Made by a program: the position numbers and the translations under genes
In this document: piece after piece, positions 1,122-29,720 of the stretch
Layout: each line of letters opens with the position of its first letter
How positions within the stretch are numbered: the stretch's first letter is position 1
The notes under the pieces: generated by a model
Told to the model about the DNA's origin: nothing
Database searches by the model: none
Seen by the model: the letters and a program-made list of their open reading frames with translations, nothing else
Assembly: GCA_028712175.1 (NCBI GenBank)
Contig: JAQTQQ010000012.1
Span: 1 to 32,392 of the forward strand
Length of the DNA stretch: 32,392 bases
Origin: Candidatus Omnitrophota bacterium
GTDB lineage: Bacteria > Omnitrophota > Gorgyraeia > Gygaellales > Profunditerraquicolaceae
Direction of reading: 5' to 3'

Positions 1122-2210
1122 CTAGATTCCTTTCAAGATTTTTTTAAAATCTACATATTCTTTAATTAATTTTACAACCGCATCAATCTTATCCGTATCA
1201 CATGTCCTGATCTTTACCGTTATATCATGCACACAGGTTGCCACATCATATGTGTCCAACTTAGCAAGCAAAACCGGAATATGCGCTTTAAATAAAAGAT
1301 CCATAACCGCCGGCTGCGGAATTATTCCGCATGTCAAAACTATTCCGCAAACTTTTAATCTCGTATTGACTGTCTCGCGGAAACAGTTAAGGGCAATCAT
1401 AATCATATCCTCCCTGTCCCCGGGAGTGATCATAAGGCTATCTTCGCTGATATAACGCTGGGCATCGCGCGGCTCCATCGCCGCAACAATTACCTTAGAC
1501 ACAGAGCTTTCTAAATACTCTTTGCCGCAAAGCACCTGAAAATTTGTTTCCTCTAAAATCTGCTCAATCGTAGGCCTGGCAAGCATAGGGTCATAAGGCA
1601 AAACACCCAGGACATCAATACCTTTTCTTTCCAAACCTTTCCTGACTAAACGGTTAATCTTATCAAATTTATTCGGCAGGACTTTATTTACAATTACGCC
1701 TAAAACCTTAACCCCTTCTTTTTCAAAAAGGGATTTATTTAAGATGATCTCATCAATCGGCCGGCCAACGCCGCCAGAAGAAATAATAATTACTTTTGAT
1801 CCTAGGAGCTTTGCCACTGCGGCATTAGAATGATCAAATACCGAACCCACTCCTGCATGGCCTGTTCCCTCAATAACCACCAATTCCTGCTTTTTTGAAA
1901 TCCTGCGGAAAGAATCTTTGATTTGCTTAGATATACTGTTCTTATCCGGCTTTGAAATGTATTTCTCGGTAAATCCTTTTTCTACTGCGATCGGGCTCAT
2001 ATCTTTAAGCCCGCATTTTATTCCGCAAACCTCTTCGATAAGGATAGAATCTTCATCAATCTTTTGCCCCTCTTCCTGAAGGTAGCGCTGGCCGATTGGC
2101 TTAATAAAACCAACTTTACCGAATTTCTCCTGTAAATTACGGATTATCCCTAAAGAAACCGTGGTTTTGCCGTCATTCTGCTTAGTAGCGGCAATAAAAA
2201 TTTTACGCAT
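1122..2210 (-). CDS. BioD-like P-loop + DRTGG domain protein (stand-alone Pta N-terminal half)
   Basis: 362 residues. The N-terminus has a dethiobiotin-synthetase-like P-loop (ATKQNDGKTT, about residues 8-17) with GFIKPIGQRY next, and IEGTGHAGVGSVFD near 115, as in the AAA_26 domain. The second half contains a DRTGG domain (around LMITPGDREDMIMIAL). The same two domains form the N-terminal regulatory half of long phosphotransacetylases; here they are a separate gene immediately before the short pta. I infer a regulatory or complex-forming partner of Pta, not a biotin enzyme. I chose the ATG at 2210, which overlaps the trxA stop (TGATG), over a TTG one codon upstream. The nucleotide bound and the effect on Pta cannot be read from sequence. 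Confidence 0.85.
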   Translation of the reverse strand: MRKIFIAATKQNDGKTTVSLGIIRNLQEKFGKVGFIKPIGQRYLQEEGQKIDEDSILIEEVCGIKCGLKDMSPIAVEKGFTEKYISKPDKNSISKQIKDSFRRISKKQELVVIEGTGHAGVGSVFDHSNAAVAKLLGSKVIIISSGGVGRPIDEIILNKSLFEKEGVKVLGVIVNKVLPNKFDKINRLVRKGLERKGIDVLGVLPYDPMLARPTIEQILEETNFQVLCGKEYLESSVSKVIVAAMEPRDAQRYISEDSLMITPGDREDMIMIALNCFRETVNTRLKVCGIVLTCGIIPQPAVMDLLFKAHIPVLLAKLDTYDVATCVHDITVKIRTCDTDKIDAVVKLIKEYVDFKKILKGI

Positions 2211-2530
2211 CAAAGGTTCTCTTCTATTTTACGCTTTAAATCGAGCTTGCTCACCGCCCCTACTAACTGGCTCATAACTTTGCCTTTTTTGAAAAAAATA
2301 ATTGTCGGTATTGACATTATTCCATACTGGGTAGCGGCCTTGGAGTTTGCATCAACATCAACTTTTCCGATCTTCATTTTTCCCGAATACTCCTTAGCCA
2401 AATCATCAACAAACGGAGCGATCATTTTACACGGGCCGCACCAGCTAGCCCAAAAATCAACTAAAACCGGCAGTTCTGAATCCAATACCTCTTTCTTAAA
2501 ATTAGCATCGGTAAAATGTTGAATACTCAT
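2210..2530 (-). CDS. trxA: thioredoxin
   Basis: A 106-residue cytosolic disulfide reductase of normal thioredoxin length. The active site WCGPCK lies in WASWCGPCKMIAPF (about residues 28-41), and the cis-proline loop SIPTIIFFKKGK is at about 74-85. No signal peptide is present. It is the first gene of the acetate operon, with the next start overlapping its stop. The Shine-Dalgarno sequence AAGGA stands about 8 bases before the ATG. The pairing of a thioredoxin with pta/ackA is unusual enough to note, but nothing in the sequence shows whether it acts on those enzymes. Confidence 0.95.
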   Translation of the reverse strand: MSIQHFTDANFKKEVLDSELPVLVDFWASWCGPCKMIAPFVDDLAKEYSGKMKIGKVDVDANSKAATQYGIMSIPTIIFFKKGKVMSQLVGAVSKLDLKRKIEENL

Positions 2531-2579
2531 TCTTTAATCCTTTTACATAAATGGGTTAATAAAATTGGCAGGTTTAATT

Positions 2580-2608
2580 AAAATAACATAAACGCTCCGA
2601 AATTGCAA
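2580..2608 (-). promoter_or_regulatory. possible sigma-70-type promoter of trxA operon
   Basis: TTGCAA (2603-2608) and TATTTT (2580-2585) are separated by exactly 17 bases, about 50 bases upstream of the trxA start. Each box matches the consensus at only four of six positions, so this is a weak call. Confidence 0.35.
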
Positions 2609-2629
2609 GAAATTTGATAAGGAGTTGAC

Positions 2630-2642
2630 GCAAACAGTTTGC
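2630..2642. promoter_or_regulatory. 13-bp perfect palindrome upstream of trxA
   Basis: GCAAACAGTTTGC is a perfect inverted repeat about 25 bases upstream of the candidate -35 box of trxA. It has the size and symmetry of a repressor or activator half-site pair. I do not recognise the binding family, and chance is possible in AT-rich DNA. Confidence 0.25.
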
Positions 2643-2643
2643 T

Positions 2644-2790
2644 TTATTTCTCCAGGCAACGCTTAAGCCGCCCCGATGTAATAACTCTACCCTTCATCGG
2701 AACCTTTCGCTCCCGAGCCAAGAAAATAACCGGGACGACTTCATTTAATTCATTAAAGGATAAACCTCCCGGAATTATTATTTTTACCAA
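2644..2790 (-). CDS. possible 48-residue ORF, unknown
   Basis: A TTG-started frame of 48 codons runs through most of the 333-base gap between trxA and the BNR-repeat gene. Its product would begin MVKIIIPGG and end GRVITSGRLKRCLEK, mixed hydrophobic then strongly basic. There is no good Shine-Dalgarno sequence before the TTG and no family I recognise. The same stretch can form a hairpin (CCGATG pairs with CATCGG at 2675-2700), so it could instead be a gene remnant or a structured leader. I see nothing else gene-like in 2531-2863. Confidence 0.25.
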   Translation of the reverse strand: MVKIIIPGGLSFNELNEVVPVIFLARERKVPMKGRVITSGRLKRCLEK

Positions 2791-2863
2791 TTATAGCCTA
2801 TAAGGATTTTAGCTGTTTTGCGGATTCTCCTGTGGTCTAAGAACACGAACTGACAACTTAAAA

Positions 2864-4435
2864 TTAACCCCGATGTTTATCCGCAAGCCGGCGTAATTGA
2901 TCTGAATAGTATCCTGCGGTAAGCGAATCTAAAGAAGCCGTGAGCTCTTCAAGCCTTAGCTGTTTATCAAAAATTTTCTTCCTATCCTCAATAGGTAAGT
3001 TATCCAGTTCCGATTTTACCCTCAAGCGTTCAAAATAAAGTTTATTTACCTGATCCAGTATATCATCGCGCAGCTCCACCATAAGCTTTGAGCGCACATC
3101 AATGCTTGTCTGCGCGTCATTCCAGATCAAGTCACCAAAATCCCAGGATATGGAAACATCCCAATCAATACTATCCTGCCCTCGGCGCAGAATATCATCT
3201 TCAGCTTTAGTGCTCGAACCACCTTCCCAATGCCATAAATCAGTTGAATTACGGTCAAGGCCGACACGCACTTGAGGAAATAATGCCTTTTTTGCCGCTT
3301 TTTTCCTCCAGGCAGATATTTTTTCCGGACCTACTTCAGCATAATTTATTGCTGCCTTCTGCACATCCCTTATTTTTGGTTCACGCTTAAGATACTCTTG
3401 CATCAAAGACTGACGCGAAAAAGAGGAGAGGTCAGGCGGACTAGATCTGAATAACCCTTTTTCCGCGGCAACGTAGATATTGAATTTACTATCCAGCGAG
3501 AGATAATTAAATTTTCCTGCCGGCAGCCCGAAAGAAACTTCTACCCAATGCGAATCCTCGAAAACGAAGACTCCTGAACGGCAAAGCGCAAAAATCTGCG
3601 AATTTTCCGATACACATATCATCTTGACATCCCGATCCAACAAGCCATACTCACTTAACTTAATCCAGCTCTTACCTTGGTCCGGACTTTTATATATACC
3701 CTTGGATGTAGAAAGGTATAATAAATTAATATTATTGATACCTGCTTTTACAAAACGCAAATCAGATGTTTTCTTAAAGAGGCTTTCTTCGTTCTCAAGG
3801 TCTTCATGGCTGATATCTTCCTTACTATTACTAACAAAAATCTTCTCCCAATTATTACCGCTGTCTATTGATTTAAAAATACCATTTACGGCAGATAGGT
3901 ATACGACTGTGTTTTGTTTAAATGGAGCATCAATATTAATTACCTCGTTTTTTCCTATCTCTCCATTATCTTTCCGCCAGCTTCTTCCTTTGTCCCTGCT
4001 GACAAAAAAACCTGCTCTTGTGCCAAGAAAAATTCCCTGCGCAGTACTAAACACAGAAGTGCATTGGTTCTCTAGGCTATTCTTTCCGCGAAAAATTCTT
4101 GCCCAGCGGGCGCCTAAATTACCGCTGCGGTATAAACCATTATCAGTAGCAGCATAAACTATATTAAAATCACCTGCTTCTGTTATTAAAACATTAATAT
4201 TGCGCAGCCGCCCTCTTATGCTTAAAACTCTGCGCCAGGTTAAGCCGGCATTATCAGTCATTAATACGCTCCCCGGGACCCCCGCAAAAATAACCTTATT
4301 ATCAGGCGGGTTAACTAAAATTGCCTGAATATTGGAATTTCCCCTGCTTAAATCCTCCCAAACCAATTCCTCCGCCAGAAGAGTACAACTCATAACCCCA
4401 AAACAAACCGCAGTCAGCAATAATTTTTTATTCAT
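2864..4435 (-). CDS. exported Asp-box (BNR/VPS10-type) repeat protein with helical C-terminus
   Basis: 523 residues with a signal peptide (about 1-21, MNKKLLLTAVCFGVMSCTLLA). Residues about 25-330 hold at least five Asp-box motifs of the form (S/T)xDxGxxW: TDNAGLTW, SGNLGARW, SRDKGRSW, SIDSGNNW and SPDQGKSW, each on a strand pair with GLYRS or GIYKS-like lead-ins. This is the beta-propeller pattern of sialidase-like, Ycf48-like and VPS10 proteins. Residues about 340-523 are predicted helical and charged, with SISWDFGDLIWND resembling outer-membrane barrel edge sequences. A periplasmic or surface propeller is likely. Substrate or partner is unknown and the sialidase catalytic residues are not evident. 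A strong Shine-Dalgarno sequence (GGAGGTGG) precedes the ATG. Confidence 0.75.
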   Translation of the reverse strand: MNKKLLLTAVCFGVMSCTLLAEELVWEDLSRGNSNIQAILVNPPDNKVIFAGVPGSVLMTDNAGLTWRRVLSIRGRLRNINVLITEAGDFNIVYAATDNGLYRSGNLGARWARIFRGKNSLENQCTSVFSTAQGIFLGTRAGFFVSRDKGRSWRKDNGEIGKNEVINIDAPFKQNTVVYLSAVNGIFKSIDSGNNWEKIFVSNSKEDISHEDLENEESLFKKTSDLRFVKAGINNINLLYLSTSKGIYKSPDQGKSWIKLSEYGLLDRDVKMICVSENSQIFALCRSGVFVFEDSHWVEVSFGLPAGKFNYLSLDSKFNIYVAAEKGLFRSSPPDLSSFSRQSLMQEYLKREPKIRDVQKAAINYAEVGPEKISAWRKKAAKKALFPQVRVGLDRNSTDLWHWEGGSSTKAEDDILRRGQDSIDWDVSISWDFGDLIWNDAQTSIDVRSKLMVELRDDILDQVNKLYFERLRVKSELDNLPIEDRKKIFDKQLRLEELTASLDSLTAGYYSDQLRRLADKHRG

Positions 4436-4483
4436 TTTACCACCTCCTGAGACAATGGACGCAAGAGATGAAAAAATCTAACT

Positions 4484-4530
4484 AAAAAAATAGAGGGGCA
4501 CTCCCTCCGTGCTATGAGGGAAATGCCCCC
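4484..4530 (-). terminator. rho-independent terminator after feoB
   Basis: A long hairpin (GGGGCA.TCCCTC pairing with GAGGGA.TGCCCC, 4495-4529), followed on the minus strand by a run of seven T, stands just downstream of the feoB stop. Confidence 0.85.
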
Positions 4531-4551
4531 TATCCATTAAAAATTTACTTA

Positions 4552-6282
4552 TTAGCGCAAAATTGTAAAATGCAGCAAAGAACCTATAATGATGCTGATA
4601 AAAAGCATAAGTGAAGTTGCCTTAATCATACCCTTAAACCCTAGCTCCTTAGCTAAAACCACAAAAGTAGCTATGCAAGGAAACGATATAGCCAATAGTG
4701 TTGCGGAAATAAATAATTGATTCGCGGATAAATTAAGCGGCATCAGCATCCCTACAGCAACATCCTTTCTTAAGAACCCGATAGATAAAGCAACTACCGC
4801 TTCTTTGGGCAGGCCAAACAAACCATGAACTACCGGCGCAAAGATACCTGTTACAAAATCAAATAATTTATAATACAAAAGGATATTAATGAACAATACC
4901 CCTAATAAAACTACCGGCAAGGCTTCTATCAAAAATCCCTTGATGCGAAAATACAATTTTTTCCACAACATAAATAAAGGCGGGAACCTGTAAGGAGGGA
5001 TCTCCAAAAGAAATTCCGGGCTATAACCGCTCAACGTACGATTCAAGATTATTCCCAAGATAATAATCAAAGAAAATAATACCAAGTATACTCCGCCAAC
5101 GTAAAAACCTCCGAATTTTCCTAACAAGCCGAATATCATCGCCTGCAGAGGAACACAAGGTACGCCGATAGATATAATTGTAGCGGCGATAAATCTTTCT
5201 CTTTTTGACTCTAATACGCGCGTGGATAAAATTCCGGGTACATTGCAGCCAAAACCCAAAAGTACGGGGATCACCGCATAACCATGCAGCCCTAAACGGT
5301 GCAAGAGATTATCTAACAATATTGCCAGCCTTGGCAGGTACCCAATATCCTCCAGAAGGCTTAAAATAAAATAAAATGACACTACATACGGCAGCACCAT
5401 TCCAAATTCAATATAAGGAGCAGTAGTCAAAACTCCCAAGGATTGCTTAAAATCAATTTTTCCATCAATTAAATCCCCAATCAGCAAATGATACCAAAAA
5501 CCTTTTTCCTGCCAATGAGAAGTAAGGTTCTCTAAAACAGGCTGGTAAAAATTCAAGAAAATCGGGTCAGTGATATGAGAAATAATCCCTTCACCGATAA
5601 AGCGCACAAACTTAAATGCGGCGTAAATAACCCCGGATGCCATAAGCAAACCGGTTACAGGGCGCACTGAAGCATCTTCCAGAATTTCCCTAAAATTATG
5701 ATGCCGGTGCTCTAAGCGTTGAGATTGTTCAACAATTTTGCCAATTTCTAACCAAAGCTCCTGATGCGTAAGTTTATTTCTTAAAGAAGGCCTTGCTTCT
5801 TTAACCCTTTGAATTAATAATTTTATGCCTGCGCCTGTTACTGCGCAGGTAGAAATTACCGGAGCCTTAAGCAATTCTTCAAGCCTTCCAATATCTATAT
5901 GGATGCCCCGGTGGCTGGCGTCATCACACATATTCATGCAAACAATTACCGGGAAACCTTCTTCAATTAACTGCAAGGTCAGAAGAAGGTTTCTTTCTAA
6001 ATTCGTAGAATCGACAATATTGATTACAGCGATATCTTCCTTCGGGAGCTCCCTCAATAATGATACCGCTACTTCTTCGGCGCCGGAGCTGGGATCTAAG
6101 GAATAAGTCCCCGGCAAGTCTAGGACTTCAACCTTCTGCTCATCTAAGCGTAAATATCCCTTTGCGATCTCAACGGTTGTACCTGGGTAATTGGAAGAAA
6201 TTACCTGAACTCCGGTTATACGCGAAAATACAACACTTTTACCGACATTAGGATTTCCAATCAAATAAATTTTCTTTATCAT
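4552..6282 (-). CDS. feoB: ferrous iron transport protein B
   Basis: Inner-membrane Fe(II) uptake protein with an N-terminal GTPase. The G motifs are GNPNVGKS (9-16), YPGTT (32-36), DLPGTYS (55-61) and NMCD (117-120). The membrane part holds the Gate-type signatures GFGCNVPGI and GVPCVPLQAM and a series of hydrophobic segments to the end. At 576 residues it is shorter than E. coli FeoB (773) but still has both membrane halves, so it does not look truncated; the linker between G domain and membrane is reduced. Its ATG overlaps the feoA stop by one base (TAATG). FeoC is absent, as in many lineages. Confidence 0.95.
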   Translation of the reverse strand: MIKKIYLIGNPNVGKSVVFSRITGVQVISSNYPGTTVEIAKGYLRLDEQKVEVLDLPGTYSLDPSSGAEEVAVSLLRELPKEDIAVINIVDSTNLERNLLLTLQLIEEGFPVIVCMNMCDDASHRGIHIDIGRLEELLKAPVISTCAVTGAGIKLLIQRVKEARPSLRNKLTHQELWLEIGKIVEQSQRLEHRHHNFREILEDASVRPVTGLLMASGVIYAAFKFVRFIGEGIISHITDPIFLNFYQPVLENLTSHWQEKGFWYHLLIGDLIDGKIDFKQSLGVLTTAPYIEFGMVLPYVVSFYFILSLLEDIGYLPRLAILLDNLLHRLGLHGYAVIPVLLGFGCNVPGILSTRVLESKRERFIAATIISIGVPCVPLQAMIFGLLGKFGGFYVGGVYLVLFSLIIILGIILNRTLSGYSPEFLLEIPPYRFPPLFMLWKKLYFRIKGFLIEALPVVLLGVLFINILLYYKLFDFVTGIFAPVVHGLFGLPKEAVVALSIGFLRKDVAVGMLMPLNLSANQLFISATLLAISFPCIATFVVLAKELGFKGMIKATSLMLFISIIIGSLLHFTILR

Positions 6283-16054: not shown

Positions 16055-18283
16055 TTAAATAGTATCTATCTCCTTTAATTCCCGCCGGATTTCCTGATAC
16101 ATTTCAGGATCTACCAGGCGCGATATCTCCTGAGCTTTGCGCCAATATTCCCTAGCCAGATTCTTCCGCCCCTGCTTCTTATATAGCAATCCAAGGTTAT
16201 ACCCTGCATTTACCATATCCGGCTGGCTATTGATCTGGCTGGAGAGAATAAACGACTTTTTAAAATAATCTTCCGCTATAGGCAAATCCTCCATTTCCAA
16301 ATAAAGTTCCCCTATCATGTTATAGTCACAGGCTAAACCAACCTTATTATCCTGGCCTTCATCTATCCTTAAACCTTTAAAATAATACTCCGATGCCTTC
16401 TGATATTCTTTTTCAAAAAGATAAATTTCCCCAAGGTTGAAATAACAATCGCTTAATTCGTTCTTTAAATTAAGACGCTCAAATATTTTCATGCTTCTTA
16501 CATAAAAATCTTTCGCTGCAGGGTAATCATTTTTATTTGCAAACACTAAACCAATATCAAAATAATCGCATGCCAAGTTCTTTGTGTTTTCAAAATTATT
16601 GGGGTGCTCAAGATTAATTGCGGCGCTTTTAGTCAGTAAATCCAGGGCCTGCCCATAATTACTGTTATCAATGTGCCAAACGGCAAGTTTTCTTAAAGCC
16701 ACGGCCTCATTTTTCTTATTTTTTAACTGCCGGCTCAAACTTACCGCCTTATTATAAAGCTCCTCCGCCTTAGGATATTTGCCATCAAGATGATAGAACC
16801 ATCCCAGTTTTATGTAGGCTTCAGTAAGATGGTTTTTATTATTTAATCTTTCGCTCTTTAGCACATATTCAAAATAATATTTTTTTGCCTTCTCTTTATC
16901 GCCAAGACGCTGATAAGCGTCGGCAATTACTGGATAGGCAGCTAAAAAGTTCTGATCAAGGCTGATTACCCGTTTGCTTAAAGCTATCGCTGCCTGATTA
17001 TTGCCTTTACGGTATGCTGCCTGTGAATTTAAAAAATGAAAAAGCTTTCCCGGATTAATTCTTGGGAATAAAAAAATAAAGAAAACACTCAAAAAAATAA
17101 GGATAACCGCCAGCCCAACCTTAAGCTTAAATTTTTTATAAATAACGCCAAACTTTTTCTTTTCTTTACGTTGATGAATTCTAAAAAAAACAAAACTTGG
17201 ATCTCCGTAAAGCAAATAGTTTACCCAATGCAAACTGTCTAAACCGAATTCTTTGACTAATTTCAATTTGGATAAGCGTAAAGACTCGCCTACGCTTATG
17301 CCAGAAATCAGTTTTAAGTAAAATTCGCGGGCAAAGACATGGCTAGCTTTATCCTCTATCTTCCGGATTGAACCAATATAATGCCTTACTCCGGCGAATA
17401 AAAATGCGCTGGCCATACCATAATTAGCTCTTTGGTATTCAGCATCGATTAGGCCCTTAAGAGCTGCGCTATTGGCTGCGGTGATACTGCGTGGATAAAC
17501 TTGGGCAGAATGACAGGCATTTGAGAAGATCAAGGCCGGAAAATTCAAGCTATGCCCCATTTTAAGTATGTCCTCAACTTTAAATATCCCGTCGCTTAAC
17601 ACCCATCCGCTGTTCTTGGAATCCCTTTTATCAAATTCGCAGTGTCCGGCAAAATGCACGATATCATAATCACAGATATTCTTTTTTACATAGTTTTTTT
17701 CAATATTGGTAGATTTAAAATCAACATAGACTTTTTTAGCCATATGATTAAACTGGTTCTTAATGTTTAACCCTTCAGAATAGGCGCTCTTTAAATCAGC
17801 GCTGGGATTAGCTAAAATTAACATCCTCAGGCTATCGGATAAATCACGGTATTGTAAAAGGGTAGCCTCGCCTTTGCTGCGGACTAACCTGCCTACACTG
17901 AATTTCAAACAGAGAAAATCAGAGCCATCAAAAATCAGCTCCCAAGGGATATAAATCAATTCTTCATCTAAACAGAGAGTTAATACGGCAGGAGGTGAAT
18001 TTTTAAGATTTTCTTTGATCGAACGGCTGAACAGGTGGTTCCAAAATAACTGCCCTATCTTTTGCAGGCTCTTTAGCTGCTCAAATTTAGAAACATTATC
18101 ATTGGCCGGCCAGTTAAGAACAGCGACTAACTCGGCACTTAATTGTTTTAATTCATCAAAAGAAACCCCCACCTGGCTATAATGGCGCAGGGTGGGGAGA
18201 GTTTGCCCCTGGTCGAATAAACCCATCTTAAGGCAGTCATTCTGCTTAAATACTTCCAAAATCAGCGTTTCCACTTGGGGCAT
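16055..18283 (-). CDS. CHAT-domain (caspase-like) protease with TM helix and TPR repeats
   Basis: 742 residues in three parts. Residues about 95-365 are a CHAT domain of the caspase-like clan CD, with the His motif HFAGHCEF (H210/H214) and the Cys motif FSNACHS (C257), so the dyad looks intact. A lysine-rich stretch (371-388) then leads into a hydrophobic helix (about 389-408), which by the positive-inside rule leaves CHAT in the cytoplasm. Residues about 415-735 are TPR repeats (about eight), with pattern AxxxYxxGLRIDE and similar, predicted outside the membrane. The start lies five bases after the zinc-finger gene stop without a Shine-Dalgarno, suggesting coupling. Target and trigger are unknown; the neighbouring zinc-finger protein is the obvious candidate target (inference). 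Confidence 0.88.
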   Translation of the reverse strand: MPQVETLILEVFKQNDCLKMGLFDQGQTLPTLRHYSQVGVSFDELKQLSAELVAVLNWPANDNVSKFEQLKSLQKIGQLFWNHLFSRSIKENLKNSPPAVLTLCLDEELIYIPWELIFDGSDFLCLKFSVGRLVRSKGEATLLQYRDLSDSLRMLILANPSADLKSAYSEGLNIKNQFNHMAKKVYVDFKSTNIEKNYVKKNICDYDIVHFAGHCEFDKRDSKNSGWVLSDGIFKVEDILKMGHSLNFPALIFSNACHSAQVYPRSITAANSAALKGLIDAEYQRANYGMASAFLFAGVRHYIGSIRKIEDKASHVFAREFYLKLISGISVGESLRLSKLKLVKEFGLDSLHWVNYLLYGDPSFVFFRIHQRKEKKKFGVIYKKFKLKVGLAVILIFLSVFFIFLFPRINPGKLFHFLNSQAAYRKGNNQAAIALSKRVISLDQNFLAAYPVIADAYQRLGDKEKAKKYYFEYVLKSERLNNKNHLTEAYIKLGWFYHLDGKYPKAEELYNKAVSLSRQLKNKKNEAVALRKLAVWHIDNSNYGQALDLLTKSAAINLEHPNNFENTKNLACDYFDIGLVFANKNDYPAAKDFYVRSMKIFERLNLKNELSDCYFNLGEIYLFEKEYQKASEYYFKGLRIDEGQDNKVGLACDYNMIGELYLEMEDLPIAEDYFKKSFILSSQINSQPDMVNAGYNLGLLYKKQGRKNLAREYWRKAQEISRLVDPEMYQEIRRELKEIDTI

Positions 18284-18288
18284 AAGGA

Positions 18289-18993
18289 TTAGGCTTTAAC
18301 TTTTAAATCAATTACAGCAATTTTTTGGCCCTCTCGGCTCACTTCAACCAAATAATCACCCGGCGGGATATTTTCAAAAAAGCTGCTTCCTGAATCAGTC
18401 ATATATGATTCCAATTCAATCTCATCTTTAATCAAGGTTATCCTAAGATTTTTATATGTCTTCTGACTTAATTTATCTTTTACGGTGATTGCGAGGCTAA
18501 ATTTCTTGCTGTTTTTATTCTGGATCTTAGCGAGCACCCTTAACTGCTGGATATCTTTTAATATACTTATTTCCTCTTTAAACTCATTAATTTGGCGGCT
18601 GCGTAATACAGGAGCAGGTATCAACTCTTGGCCGACAAGTACATCCCCGGAAGTCTGAATAATCTCTAAAGCCTTATCCTTAAGCTTAAGAAATATTTCA
18701 AATAAGTTTTCTTTAGAACCATGAATAACCATGTTTTTAATCTTTTCTTCAAGTGGCAGGGGAAGATCTAAGCTTAAATGCGGCTGTATTTTCAGCTGAA
18801 CGCTGACATATTCAGCGCAGATATTACAGCTTATAAGGTGTTTCTGGACTATCTCCTTATCTTTACCCGATAGTTTATTCTCCGCGAAACAAGCTAAACT
18901 TTCTTCATCCGGATGGTTTTTCCCCGTAAACTGCCCTGCGGATTTCCACTCTCGATAAATAACCTTGGCTATTGCTTCTAAATAATCAGGCAT
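18289..18993 (-). CDS. soluble zinc-finger anti-sigma-like protein with C-terminal beta domain
   Basis: 234 residues. The N-terminal part has HPDEESLACFAENKLSG then QKHLISCNICAEY (H27, H52, C56, C59), the HxxxCxxC zinc-binding pattern of ZAS/zf-HC2 anti-sigma factors. No membrane helix follows, so it should be cytoplasmic. The middle (about 70-150) is helical. The end (about 155-234) has YKNLRITLI, then SGSSFFENIPPGDYLVEV, like the carboxypeptidase-regulatory or prealbumin-type beta-sandwich. It lies between an ECF sigma gene and the CHAT gene, 40 and 5 bases away. I infer an anti-sigma factor or sigma partner that CHAT could cleave; a plain DNA- or protein-binding zinc finger is the alternative. 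Confidence 0.75.
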   Translation of the reverse strand: MPDYLEAIAKVIYREWKSAGQFTGKNHPDEESLACFAENKLSGKDKEIVQKHLISCNICAEYVSVQLKIQPHLSLDLPLPLEEKIKNMVIHGSKENLFEIFLKLKDKALEIIQTSGDVLVGQELIPAPVLRSRQINEFKEEISILKDIQQLRVLAKIQNKNSKKFSLAITVKDKLSQKTYKNLRITLIKDEIELESYMTDSGSSFFENIPPGDYLVEVSREGQKIAVIDLKVKA

Positions 18994-19033
18994 ATTCTGT
19001 CCTCAATTCAATAGACGGATCTGCTTATCAAAT

Positions 19034-19633
19034 CTAACCCAAAAAACCTTTCTTTTTAAAGCAATCTTGAAGTTTTTGCAATATCCTCCCTTTACGCATA
19101 TCCGCTGCGCCGCGGTTAATCTTAAGATAATCCTTAACTTCGTCCAAAGTTAATTCCTGGTTCAATAATAATTCAAGAAAGAACTGTTCGTCCGATTCCA
19201 ACAAGCTAATACACTCTTGTAAAGTTTTACGCCTGTTTTGATCATGAAGAAACTCCACTGCCCCAGCGGAAACCTCTTTAAGCGTATCCGCCAGACTGAA
19301 ACCTTCTTCATCTCTTAGGTCAATTGAAACCATAGGCTTAAGCTTGCGCATATAATCTATGGTAAAATTAATGGTAACCTGCCGAAGCCAGCTGGCAAGA
19401 GAACAGCCATTCCTCCCCTTATAAGTAGATAGTTTCCTGTAGTTATCCTTTATCAGAGAACAAAATATCTCCTGAAAGATATCTTCGGCCTGCTCTGTAG
19501 ATATATTTCGGCCTTTAACAGCTAAAGTGCTATATATGTAGTTATAGATTAAACGGTTATAACGCGAAATAAACTCTGACCATGACTGTTTATTTCCTTT
19601 GAGGCAGCTTTGGACAAACTGCAAATCATCCAT
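19034..19633 (-). CDS. ECF-type RNA polymerase sigma factor
   Basis: 199 residues from the ATG at 19633. Region 2 shows [13 protein letters not shown], then [20 protein letters not shown], matching the sigma-70 region 2.2-2.4 pattern. Region 4 is less canonical but readable: [20 protein letters not shown] followed by KGRILQKLQ. Region 3 is absent, as in ECF sigmas. The frame stays open upstream to 19672, but the -10 box sits immediately before the ATG, so the internal ATG is preferred. It heads the operon sigma > zinc finger > CHAT-TPR. Target promoters are unknown. Confidence 0.88.
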
Positions 19634-19646
19634 AAATATAATTATA
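19634..19646 (-). promoter_or_regulatory. -10 box giving a possibly leaderless sigma-factor mRNA
   Basis: A perfect TATAAT (19641-19646) ends seven bases before the ATG and there is no Shine-Dalgarno between them, so the expected start site coincides with the start codon. The -35 region is weak (TATTTT at 17 bases). Confidence 0.5.
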
Positions 19647-19670
19647 ACACTAAAAATACCCTTAAAATAC

Positions 19671-19720
19671 AAAAAAAATAGGGGACGTTTCCCTTCCGCC
19701 TTAGCGGGAAACGTCCCCTA
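19671..19720 (-). terminator. rho-independent terminator after hppA
   Basis: A perfect 15-bp stem (TAGGGGACGTTTCCC with its complement, 19679-19720) followed on the minus strand by eight T. It lies 20 bases past the hppA stop. Confidence 0.92.
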
Positions 19721-19741
19721 TTCCTTATTAAAAGTTAACTT

Positions 19742-29252: not shown

Positions 29253-29720
29253 TTATGTGCAAGGGCTTGCTTCTATCCATTTTTCCAAAGCATCTGGATC
29301 CCACGCCAAATGTTGTGTCGACCTGCATTCCAGAGCCTTAGGAGCTATTGCTTTTTCGCAGCCTTCAAGAAATATACCGCGAATTCTCATCCACGCTTTC
29401 CCAGGTAAAAGCGCATCTTTCATTTTATAAAAATTATTGACTTCCCACTCCACCCAAGCATTCTTATAAGTCTCATTTCCGATTAAAACGGCTAATTTGG
29501 CACACTGCTCAAATTTCTTAATAATCTCTTCCCGTATTGTTTTTGAACGGCTATCATTTTGCTGACATTGCAGCAATTTTTCGCTCCCGTTAGCCGATAT
29601 TTCTTTGAAGCAATAATCATAAGACTCAAACACATGTTTCGATTTGCCTTTAATAAAATTGAAGGATTCAACTTGCTTTTGGTCGGTATGGTCAAAACTG
29701 ACAAATACGTTTATTGCCAT
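29253..29720 (-). CDS. TIR-like (ThsB/DUF1863-type) protein
   Basis: 155 residues. It begins MAINVFVSFDHTDQ, the first strand of TIR-like domains, and has IREEIIKKFEQCAKLAVLIG (about 62-81) followed by NETYKNAWVEWEV. The Glu of WVEWE (E93) matches the catalytic-type glutamate of TIR NAD-processing enzymes and ThsB proteins. It is a single domain with no membrane helix. ThsB works in Thoeris anti-phage defence with ThsA; no ThsA-like gene is in the window, so defence is only a possibility. Shine-Dalgarno AAGGAG precedes the ATG. Confidence 0.85.
   Translation of the reverse strand: MAINVFVSFDHTDQKQVESFNFIKGKSKHVFESYDYCFKEISANGSEKLLQCQQNDSRSKTIREEIIKKFEQCAKLAVLIGNETYKNAWVEWEVNNFYKMKDALLPGKAWMRIRGIFLEGCEKAIAPKALECRSTQHLAWDPDALEKWIEASPCT

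Follow-up and report, generated by a model that had tools for sequence, protein, structure and literature searches.

Which genes are controlled by a sigma factor that is encoded in one operon with a zinc-finger protein and a caspase-like CHAT protein, and how might such a sigma factor be set free? This question is raised by a 32,392-nucleotide contig of Candidatus Omnitrophota bacterium (JAQTQQ010000012.1 of assembly GCA_028712175.1, positions 1 to 32,392, here called the window). It carries the genes for an extracytoplasmic function (ECF) sigma factor, an anti-sigma-like protein of the ZAS type and a CHAT protein with a transmembrane (TM) helix and tetratricopeptide repeats (TPRs), together referred to as the triad. 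The sigma/ZAS/CHAT switch appears to turn on genes for the uptake of foreign DNA and for recombination in Omnitrophota. We assign a probability of roughly 0.6 to the whole reading, in which natural transformation is controlled by a proteolytic switch linked to the membrane. At sequence level it is supported by the conservation of the triad, the catalytic and zinc-binding residues, the topology, the promoter, the content of the regulon, a feedback promoter and the joint occurrence of promoter motif and triad. The three genes are:

19034..19633, minus strand: ECF sigma gene (ATG at 19633; Sigma70_r2, TIGR02937; orthologues in 60 loci)
18289..18993, minus strand: gene for a soluble ZAS-type anti-sigma-like protein of 234 amino acids (zf-HC2 in relatives; ligands; structure model)
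16055..18283, minus strand: gene for a CHAT-TM-TPR protein of 742 amino acids, a presumed membrane caspase-like protease (Pfam CHAT and TPR; structure model)

The initial annotation had described a one-strand operon, and the open reading frames (ORFs), their common minus strand and the gaps of 40 bases (sigma-ZAS) and 5 bases (ZAS-CHAT) agree with this. CHAT orthologues (E<1e-40) are present in about 98 of the 108 genomes of the Omnitrophota family, and order and strand of the triad are kept in 60 of 63 non-redundant family loci. Two of the three exceptional loci are contig ends, the third is without a recognisable sigma gene. The gene order, for which a search in related genomes had been suggested, is also found in more distant Omnitrophota: 13 genomes outside the family (up to another class) encode full-length ZAS homologues, which lie between sigma and CHAT genes wherever the contig shows it, and the genes flanking these distant triads differ from those of the family loci. 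Given the many family genomes with orthologues and the joint occurrence in 60 of 63 loci, the triad is not a chance arrangement. A second CHAT protein was not found in the genome to which the window belongs.

A similar locus was a chance find in a plasmid collection. The Leptospira interrogans record L127 (NZ_CP092665.1) encodes at 1987-5011 a sigma factor, a 242-amino-acid beta-domain protein and a CHAT protein in the same order, with a CGTCTTTT box immediately upstream of the middle gene; the CHAT gene is unannotated in the gene table. Between the Leptospira and Omnitrophota middle proteins, profile comparison showed a link of the C-terminal parts (61% probability, 40 columns). A search of the plasmid collection with the ZAS protein as query gave no matches.

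The sigma protein matches Sigma70_r2 (2.5e-7, above the Pfam cut-off), Sigma70_r4 (0.003) and the ECF sigma model TIGR02937 (1.3e-19). It consists of the sigma2 and sigma4 regions only, in about 200 amino acids, and a promoter with the CGTC-type -10 of ECF sigma factors (GTTAGA-15-CGTCnATT) lies at conserved positions, so that it qualifies as an ECF sigma factor. Its own gene is preceded by another element:

19641..19649, minus strand: TGTTATAAT, a vegetative extended -10 located 7 bases upstream of the sigma ATG

With this spacing the sigma transcript is predicted to be almost leaderless, and TGnTATAAT is found a few bases upstream of the sigma ATG in most of the 60 orthologous loci. A sigma promoter had been described upstream of the operon; a promoter is indeed present, and its type was refined to this conserved vegetative element. 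Autoregulation of the sigma gene was rejected, since no ECF motif precedes it and the vegetative -10 is found there instead. Further upstream, between hppA and the sigma gene, a perfect palindrome at 19667-19722 (GGGGACGTTTCCC ... GGGAAACGTCCCC) is followed by a run of T's and reads as a terminator or an element like a repetitive extragenic palindrome (REP). In three loci (L040, L064, L113) a RAYT transposase is found in its place.

The motif that the sigma factor probably recognises emerged from a survey of recurrent neighbours of the triad, in which an almost invariant GTTAGATTT-N12-CGTCTATT was noticed upstream of the gene for a secreted beta-propeller protein. This gene lies directly or closely downstream of the CHAT gene in most relatives (a neighbour in 30 loci, nearly all of which carry the sigma promoter upstream of it), and is displaced in the window. 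The motif, GTTAGAT-N14-CGTCnATT, is built like an ECF promoter and occurs twice in the window as an exact match:

19010..19038, minus strand: ECF-type promoter GTTAGATTTGATAAGCAGATCCGTCTATT for ZAS-CHAT, with the -35 box overlapping the sigma stop codon
4454..4482, minus strand: second exact sigma promoter GTTAGATTTTTTCATCTCTTGCGTCCATT, upstream of the propeller gene
2864..4435, minus strand: predicted target gene for a secreted YCF48/sortilin-type beta-propeller protein (Sortilin-Vps10 3.3e-11, PSII_BNR 1.2e-7)

At the sigma/ZAS junction the motif was detected in 56 of 61 family loci (one per genome), with varying spacer sequence. When sites in loci chosen without regard to the motif were counted, the distance between GTTAGA and CGTC was 15 bases at 59 of the 61 sites and 16 at the other two; other spacings did not occur. 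The motif is present in other Omnitrophota families and classes as well. In the genome of the window six exact sites were found, compared to about 0.016 expected from base composition, and a reversed-pattern control gave none. As the motif lies between the sigma and ZAS genes, the sigma factor probably drives expression of its own inhibitor and of the protease, which would constitute a negative feedback. This promoter inside the operon and the sigma regulon described below go beyond what had been observed in the initial annotation.

For determining which sigma factor reads the motif, its exact form was surveyed in 384 Omnitrophota genomes. It is present in 64 of 71 family genomes. Among the 13 other genomes that encode a full-length ZAS homologue 7 contain it, and among the 300 remaining genomes 11 (Fisher p about 1e-51, with shared ancestry uncorrected). 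From the position of the motif within the triad and from its presence tracking the triad, we strongly infer that the triad sigma factor reads GTTAGAT-N14-CGTCnATT. Another sigma factor might read this promoter, with the triad being merely one target, since the genome encodes at least one other ECF sigma factor (C5) and two weak sigma-like proteins (C11 and C12). However, only 18 of the 71 family genomes encode a C5 orthologue; such orthologues are absent from the majority of motif-rich genomes and frequent in motif-free ones, and the C11/C12 type is missing from the motif-rich genomes G080, G098, G027 and G049. Both candidates were rejected on this pattern of presence and absence, and we regard a reader other than the triad sigma as very improbable.

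The C5 locus (L263, 1405-2989) comprises a second ECF sigma gene, a gene for a TM-anchored ZAS protein and one for a protein that looks like Spy/CpxP, and is probably a canonical envelope-stress system. C11 and C12 (L265, L266) are paralogous sigma-like proteins of 174 amino acids, encoded between genes for a GAF-like protein (upstream) and a putative outer-membrane protein (downstream), and are conserved in more than half of the family.

Exact sites in the genome of the window precede ZAS-CHAT, the propeller gene, comEA-comEC, comM, a gene for a 23S-IVP-type protein with GH57, and a RAYT transposase gene; a site with two mismatches precedes spoVG-aroK-dprA-topA. Three sister genomes give the same picture. 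When comEA-comEC operons were picked by ComEC homology alone, 26 of 29 carried the motif within one mismatch, as did 15 of 30 comM genes in a set chosen regardless of the motif. In other genera 77 exact sites were evaluated by their first downstream gene, a set from which the ZAS and propeller sites were mostly left out. These first genes included ORF6N (14), comM (9), comEA (8-9), recA (7), Y1 transposase (7), spoVG (3) and dprA (1) genes, and radC is likewise among the genes downstream of motif sites in these genera. Thus, as expected for a competence regulon, a shared promoter is found upstream of comEA-comEC, comM, dprA and recA, which are among the core genes of natural transformation and recombination. 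We take this as a strong indication that the triad sigma factor controls competence genes.

The same targets could constitute a response for DNA repair or genome defence and not for DNA uptake. They include recA, radC, RecQ- and UvrD-like genes and Vsr with a DNA methyltransferase, and furthermore Cas3, RAYT, ORF6N and toxin-antitoxin-like genes, next to comM, dprA and helicases. On the other hand, the most constant target is the DNA-uptake channel comEA-comEC (26 of 29), and dprA and comM act on incoming single strands, so that a repair or defence function appears improbable as compared to control of transformation. Mobile-type genes with the competence sigma promoter (ORF6N, RAYT, toxin-antitoxin-like) are seen in many genera (L189, L194, L202, L212, L217, L221, L240 and others), as if cassettes had adopted the promoter.

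The protein encoded between sigma and CHAT was examined for features of an anti-sigma factor, for which two parts are relevant:

18724..18993, minus strand: residues 1-90 of the ZAS protein, predicted sigma-binding helical domain with Hx3Cx2C (model; weak profile matches)
18586..18615, minus strand: residues 127-136, loop PAPVLRSRQI within the beta-domain, with R131 as candidate P1 residue for CHAT

The ligands H27, H52, C56 and C59, an Hx3Cx2C motif with an upstream ligand, are invariant in 26 aligned rows; in most other families the first zinc ligand is a Cys residue. Of 26 relatives 22 match zf-HC2, with 2.7e-6 as the best value. The structure model has helices at residues 30-37, 43-55, 57-69 and 79-90, with a predicted local distance difference test score (pLDDT) of 55-80 in the helical part, and the best, weak profile matches of this part in the PDB are the known anti-sigma factors DdvA, RsiW and ChrR. 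The C-terminal part is modelled as a transthyretin-like beta-sandwich (residues 97-233). Comparison of the model to the PDB gave no convincing structural match over the whole chain, only beta-sandwich domains. The zinc ligands and the weak matches to DdvA, RsiW and ChrR bear out the previous designation as a zinc-finger anti-sigma-like protein, and no TM helix was found in it, again as proposed. According to these features it is reasonable to assume that the ZAS protein inhibits the sigma factor. The protein could instead serve as a scaffold or activator of the sigma factor or bind another target, for which the weak domain score of the window copy might speak; its zinc-ligand pattern, modelled helical fold and position directly after the sigma gene are, however, like those of ZAS anti-sigma factors, and we consider such a role highly unlikely. 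In a solved CHAT protein of 991 amino acids (PDB 8rot/8rw5) the N-terminal part matches the zinc-finger region very weakly (E=1); this protein could be a natural zinc finger-CHAT fusion.

Within the beta-domain R131 is conserved throughout: it is invariant in the family and was also found in Leptospira and in 13 proteins of distant Omnitrophota. All 19 proteins aligned have it, even those lacking the zinc ligands. It is found in the contexts LRSR, LRGE, MRGA, FREI and YRGA, and MRSA in Leptospira. Several peptidases of clan CD prefer Arg in the P1 position. Because of its invariance and this preference R131 is proposed as a candidate cleavage site for CHAT.

The features of the presumed protease are:

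17201..18061, minus strand: CHAT domain (His214 codon 17642-17644, Cys257 codon 17513-17515)
17069..17137, minus strand: TM helix, residues 383-405 (model; hydrophobic window in 61 of 63 orthologues)
16061..17053, minus strand: TPR solenoid, residues 411-741, predicted to be extracytoplasmic (Pfam; model with high confidence)

The CHAT domain (PF12770, residues 75-361) is recognised with 7.6e-27 and 94.9 bits at a cut-off of 24, and the TPRs also score above the Pfam cut-off. The His/Cys motifs, previously described as intact, are present in every sequence aligned: His214 and Cys257 are invariant in the family and in all 17 phylum-wide and Leptospira sequences. With the domain and the His/Cys dyad the protein has the attributes of a CHAT peptidase. 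The structure model (mean pLDDT 87) comprises CHAT fold, TM helix and TPR solenoid. By the positive-inside rule the CHAT domain is placed in the cytosol and the TPR side outside in 58 of 63 orthologues, which together with the single TM helix supports the topology suggested before. The TPR part is variable, being absent in L118 (from another Omnitrophota class) and in Leptospira and very long in L117. A search of the PDB with the model retrieved mostly TPR proteins, with Csx29 (8eex, 7y9x) at ranks 36 and 42.

Taken together, the following mechanism is proposed. Transcription of the sigma gene would start at the vegetative promoter, and soluble ZAS would keep the sigma factor bound. An input from the TPRs on the outer side, or one equivalent to it, would activate the cytosolic CHAT protease, which would cut ZAS in the R131 loop of the beta-domain; cleavage would destabilise the sigma-binding half and leave the sigma factor free. 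At GTTAGAT-N14-CGTCnATT, free sigma would then switch on comEA-comEC, comM, recA, spoVG-aroK-dprA and radC, as well as the gene for the secreted propeller protein and some genes of mobile elements, and by transcription of ZAS-CHAT the switch would be reset. Binding of sigma by ZAS, activity of CHAT, the nature of the signal and cells actually becoming competent are inferred parts of this scheme. That CHAT cuts ZAS, probably at R131, and thereby frees the sigma factor is proposed with moderate confidence; release of sigma through cleavage of ZAS by CHAT had already been suggested in the initial annotation and is compatible with all observations.

The same sigma factor, regulon and anti-sigma factor would also be compatible with release by a conformational change of ZAS (by zinc or redox state, or by a ligand of the beta-domain), CHAT being a sigma-controlled output that acts on other proteins. 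Indeed, CHAT lies downstream of the sigma promoter, as outputs do, and soluble ZAS proteins with a conformational response are known (ECF11/ECF12 anti-sigma factors, PMC8999054). Nevertheless, CHAT adjoins ZAS in every complete locus, including those of distant Omnitrophota and Leptospira, which suggests a direct partner, and the Arg residue of the loop outlives the zinc ligands in divergent members, which argues against a zinc or redox core mechanism. We therefore consider release by conformational change a serious but clearly less probable explanation than cleavage by CHAT.

Several observations weigh against a proteolytic switch for transformation. Half of the comM genes in the unbiased set are without the promoter, recA is not among the motif sites in the genome of the window, and the content of the regulon also fits DNA repair. 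G229 and G246 contain 5 to 6 sites, yet no relative of the sigma factor was found in them; perhaps these assemblies are incomplete. The zf-HC2 score of the window copy of ZAS is below threshold (0.046), and two proteins of distant Omnitrophota, as well as that of Leptospira, have lost the zinc ligands. R184 of ZAS is invariant as well, and R131 may have another role, e.g. a structural one, because cleavage of Csx30 was independent of any single residue (PMC10028731).

Csx30 belongs to the system most similar to the triad, the output arm of the type III-E CRISPR (clustered regularly interspaced short palindromic repeats) complex Craspase, which consists of the TPR-CHAT protease Csx29, Csx30 and CASP-sigma (PMC10028731). 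In both, a CHAT protease, an RpoE-like sigma factor and a sigma inhibitor are encoded together, the inhibitor has two domains and carries a loop in the C-terminal one, and sigma sites are present within the locus. The N-terminal domain of Csx30 binds sigma, and the cut is in a small flexible loop of the C-terminal domain (PMC10028731); in ZAS it is likewise a loop of the C-terminal domain that carries the most conserved residue. The parallel to Craspase drawn in the initial annotation, which had proposed a CRISPR-free counterpart, is thus apt. No cas genes were seen on inspection of the window ORFs of at least 120 amino acids or among the recurrent neighbours of the triad, a separate search for CRISPR arrays not having been made. 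The triad sigma scores 33 bits against the CASP-sigma model CAS_III-E_sigma (NF041236; cut-off 100), and neither the profile search of the PDB nor the 50 top-ranking structural matches revealed any similarity of ZAS to Csx30. Furthermore, the triad protein has the order CHAT-TM-TPR and is membrane-anchored, in contrast to TPR-CHAT, and the triad regulon comprises DNA uptake and recombination. Because of the lack of adjacent cas genes, the low CASP-sigma score, the missing Csx30 match and the other domain order, the triad is not counted as Craspase, although its proposed mode of action resembles that of the output arm.

In the ECF54 group CHAT, subtilase or carboxypeptidase genes are located near the sigma gene; proteolytic control was proposed for this group, which is described without an anti-sigma factor (PMC8999054). 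The triad, with ZAS between sigma and CHAT, is set apart by this description. In the RseA/DegS/RseP and RsiW systems a membrane protease input likewise leads to destruction of the anti-sigma factor and release of sigma, whereas the triad has a soluble anti-sigma factor and, as candidate protease, a membrane protein of the caspase type. Dedicated alternative sigma factors turn on com genes in Streptococcus (ComX/SigX) and Lactobacillus sakei (SigH, PMC3364868), but these are not ECF sigma factors paired with ZAS and CHAT, and the triad promoter is GTTAGAT-N14-CGTCnATT. Developmental regulators of the CHAT/caspase type are represented by HetF, a CHAT protease of filamentous cyanobacteria (eLife 2021, PMC8195603), and operons of ECF sigma, DUF1822 and caspase genes (PMC8195603) resemble the triad in having caspase-type genes near ECF sigma genes, with different partner proteins. 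Homology of the ZAS beta-domain to DUF1822 was not found (no Pfam match). In the literature searched, the coverage of which was incomplete so that novelty is not proven, we found no ECF sigma factor tied to competence.

The data suggest that competence in a deeply branching phylum is controlled by an ECF sigma factor and that a sigma/CHAT operon conserved across an uncultured bacterial family serves to control DNA uptake and recombination, with a testable prediction of promoter and regulon. With ZAS and R131 they also name a candidate substrate and a candidate cleavage site for a caspase-type protease of bacteria that does not belong to CRISPR, and they suggest free-living counterparts of the Csx29-Csx30-sigma arrangement. 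Somewhat more doubtful than the switch itself, and put forward only tentatively, is the combined proposal that a CRISPR-free membrane caspase-type protease cleaves ZAS at the invariant Arg loop and so fires the master transformation ECF sigma factor of the family, and that a more ancient core of sigma factor, inhibitor and CHAT, which some spirochaetes also possess, was a possible source of Craspase-like output arms.

Identity of the triad with a defence system was rejected, as PADLOC returned TPR-type and weak matches only. Elsewhere in the window a small ThsB-type TIR protein (Pfam ThsB_TIR 7.3e-12) is encoded, possibly a defence or signalling gene (29253-29720, minus strand).

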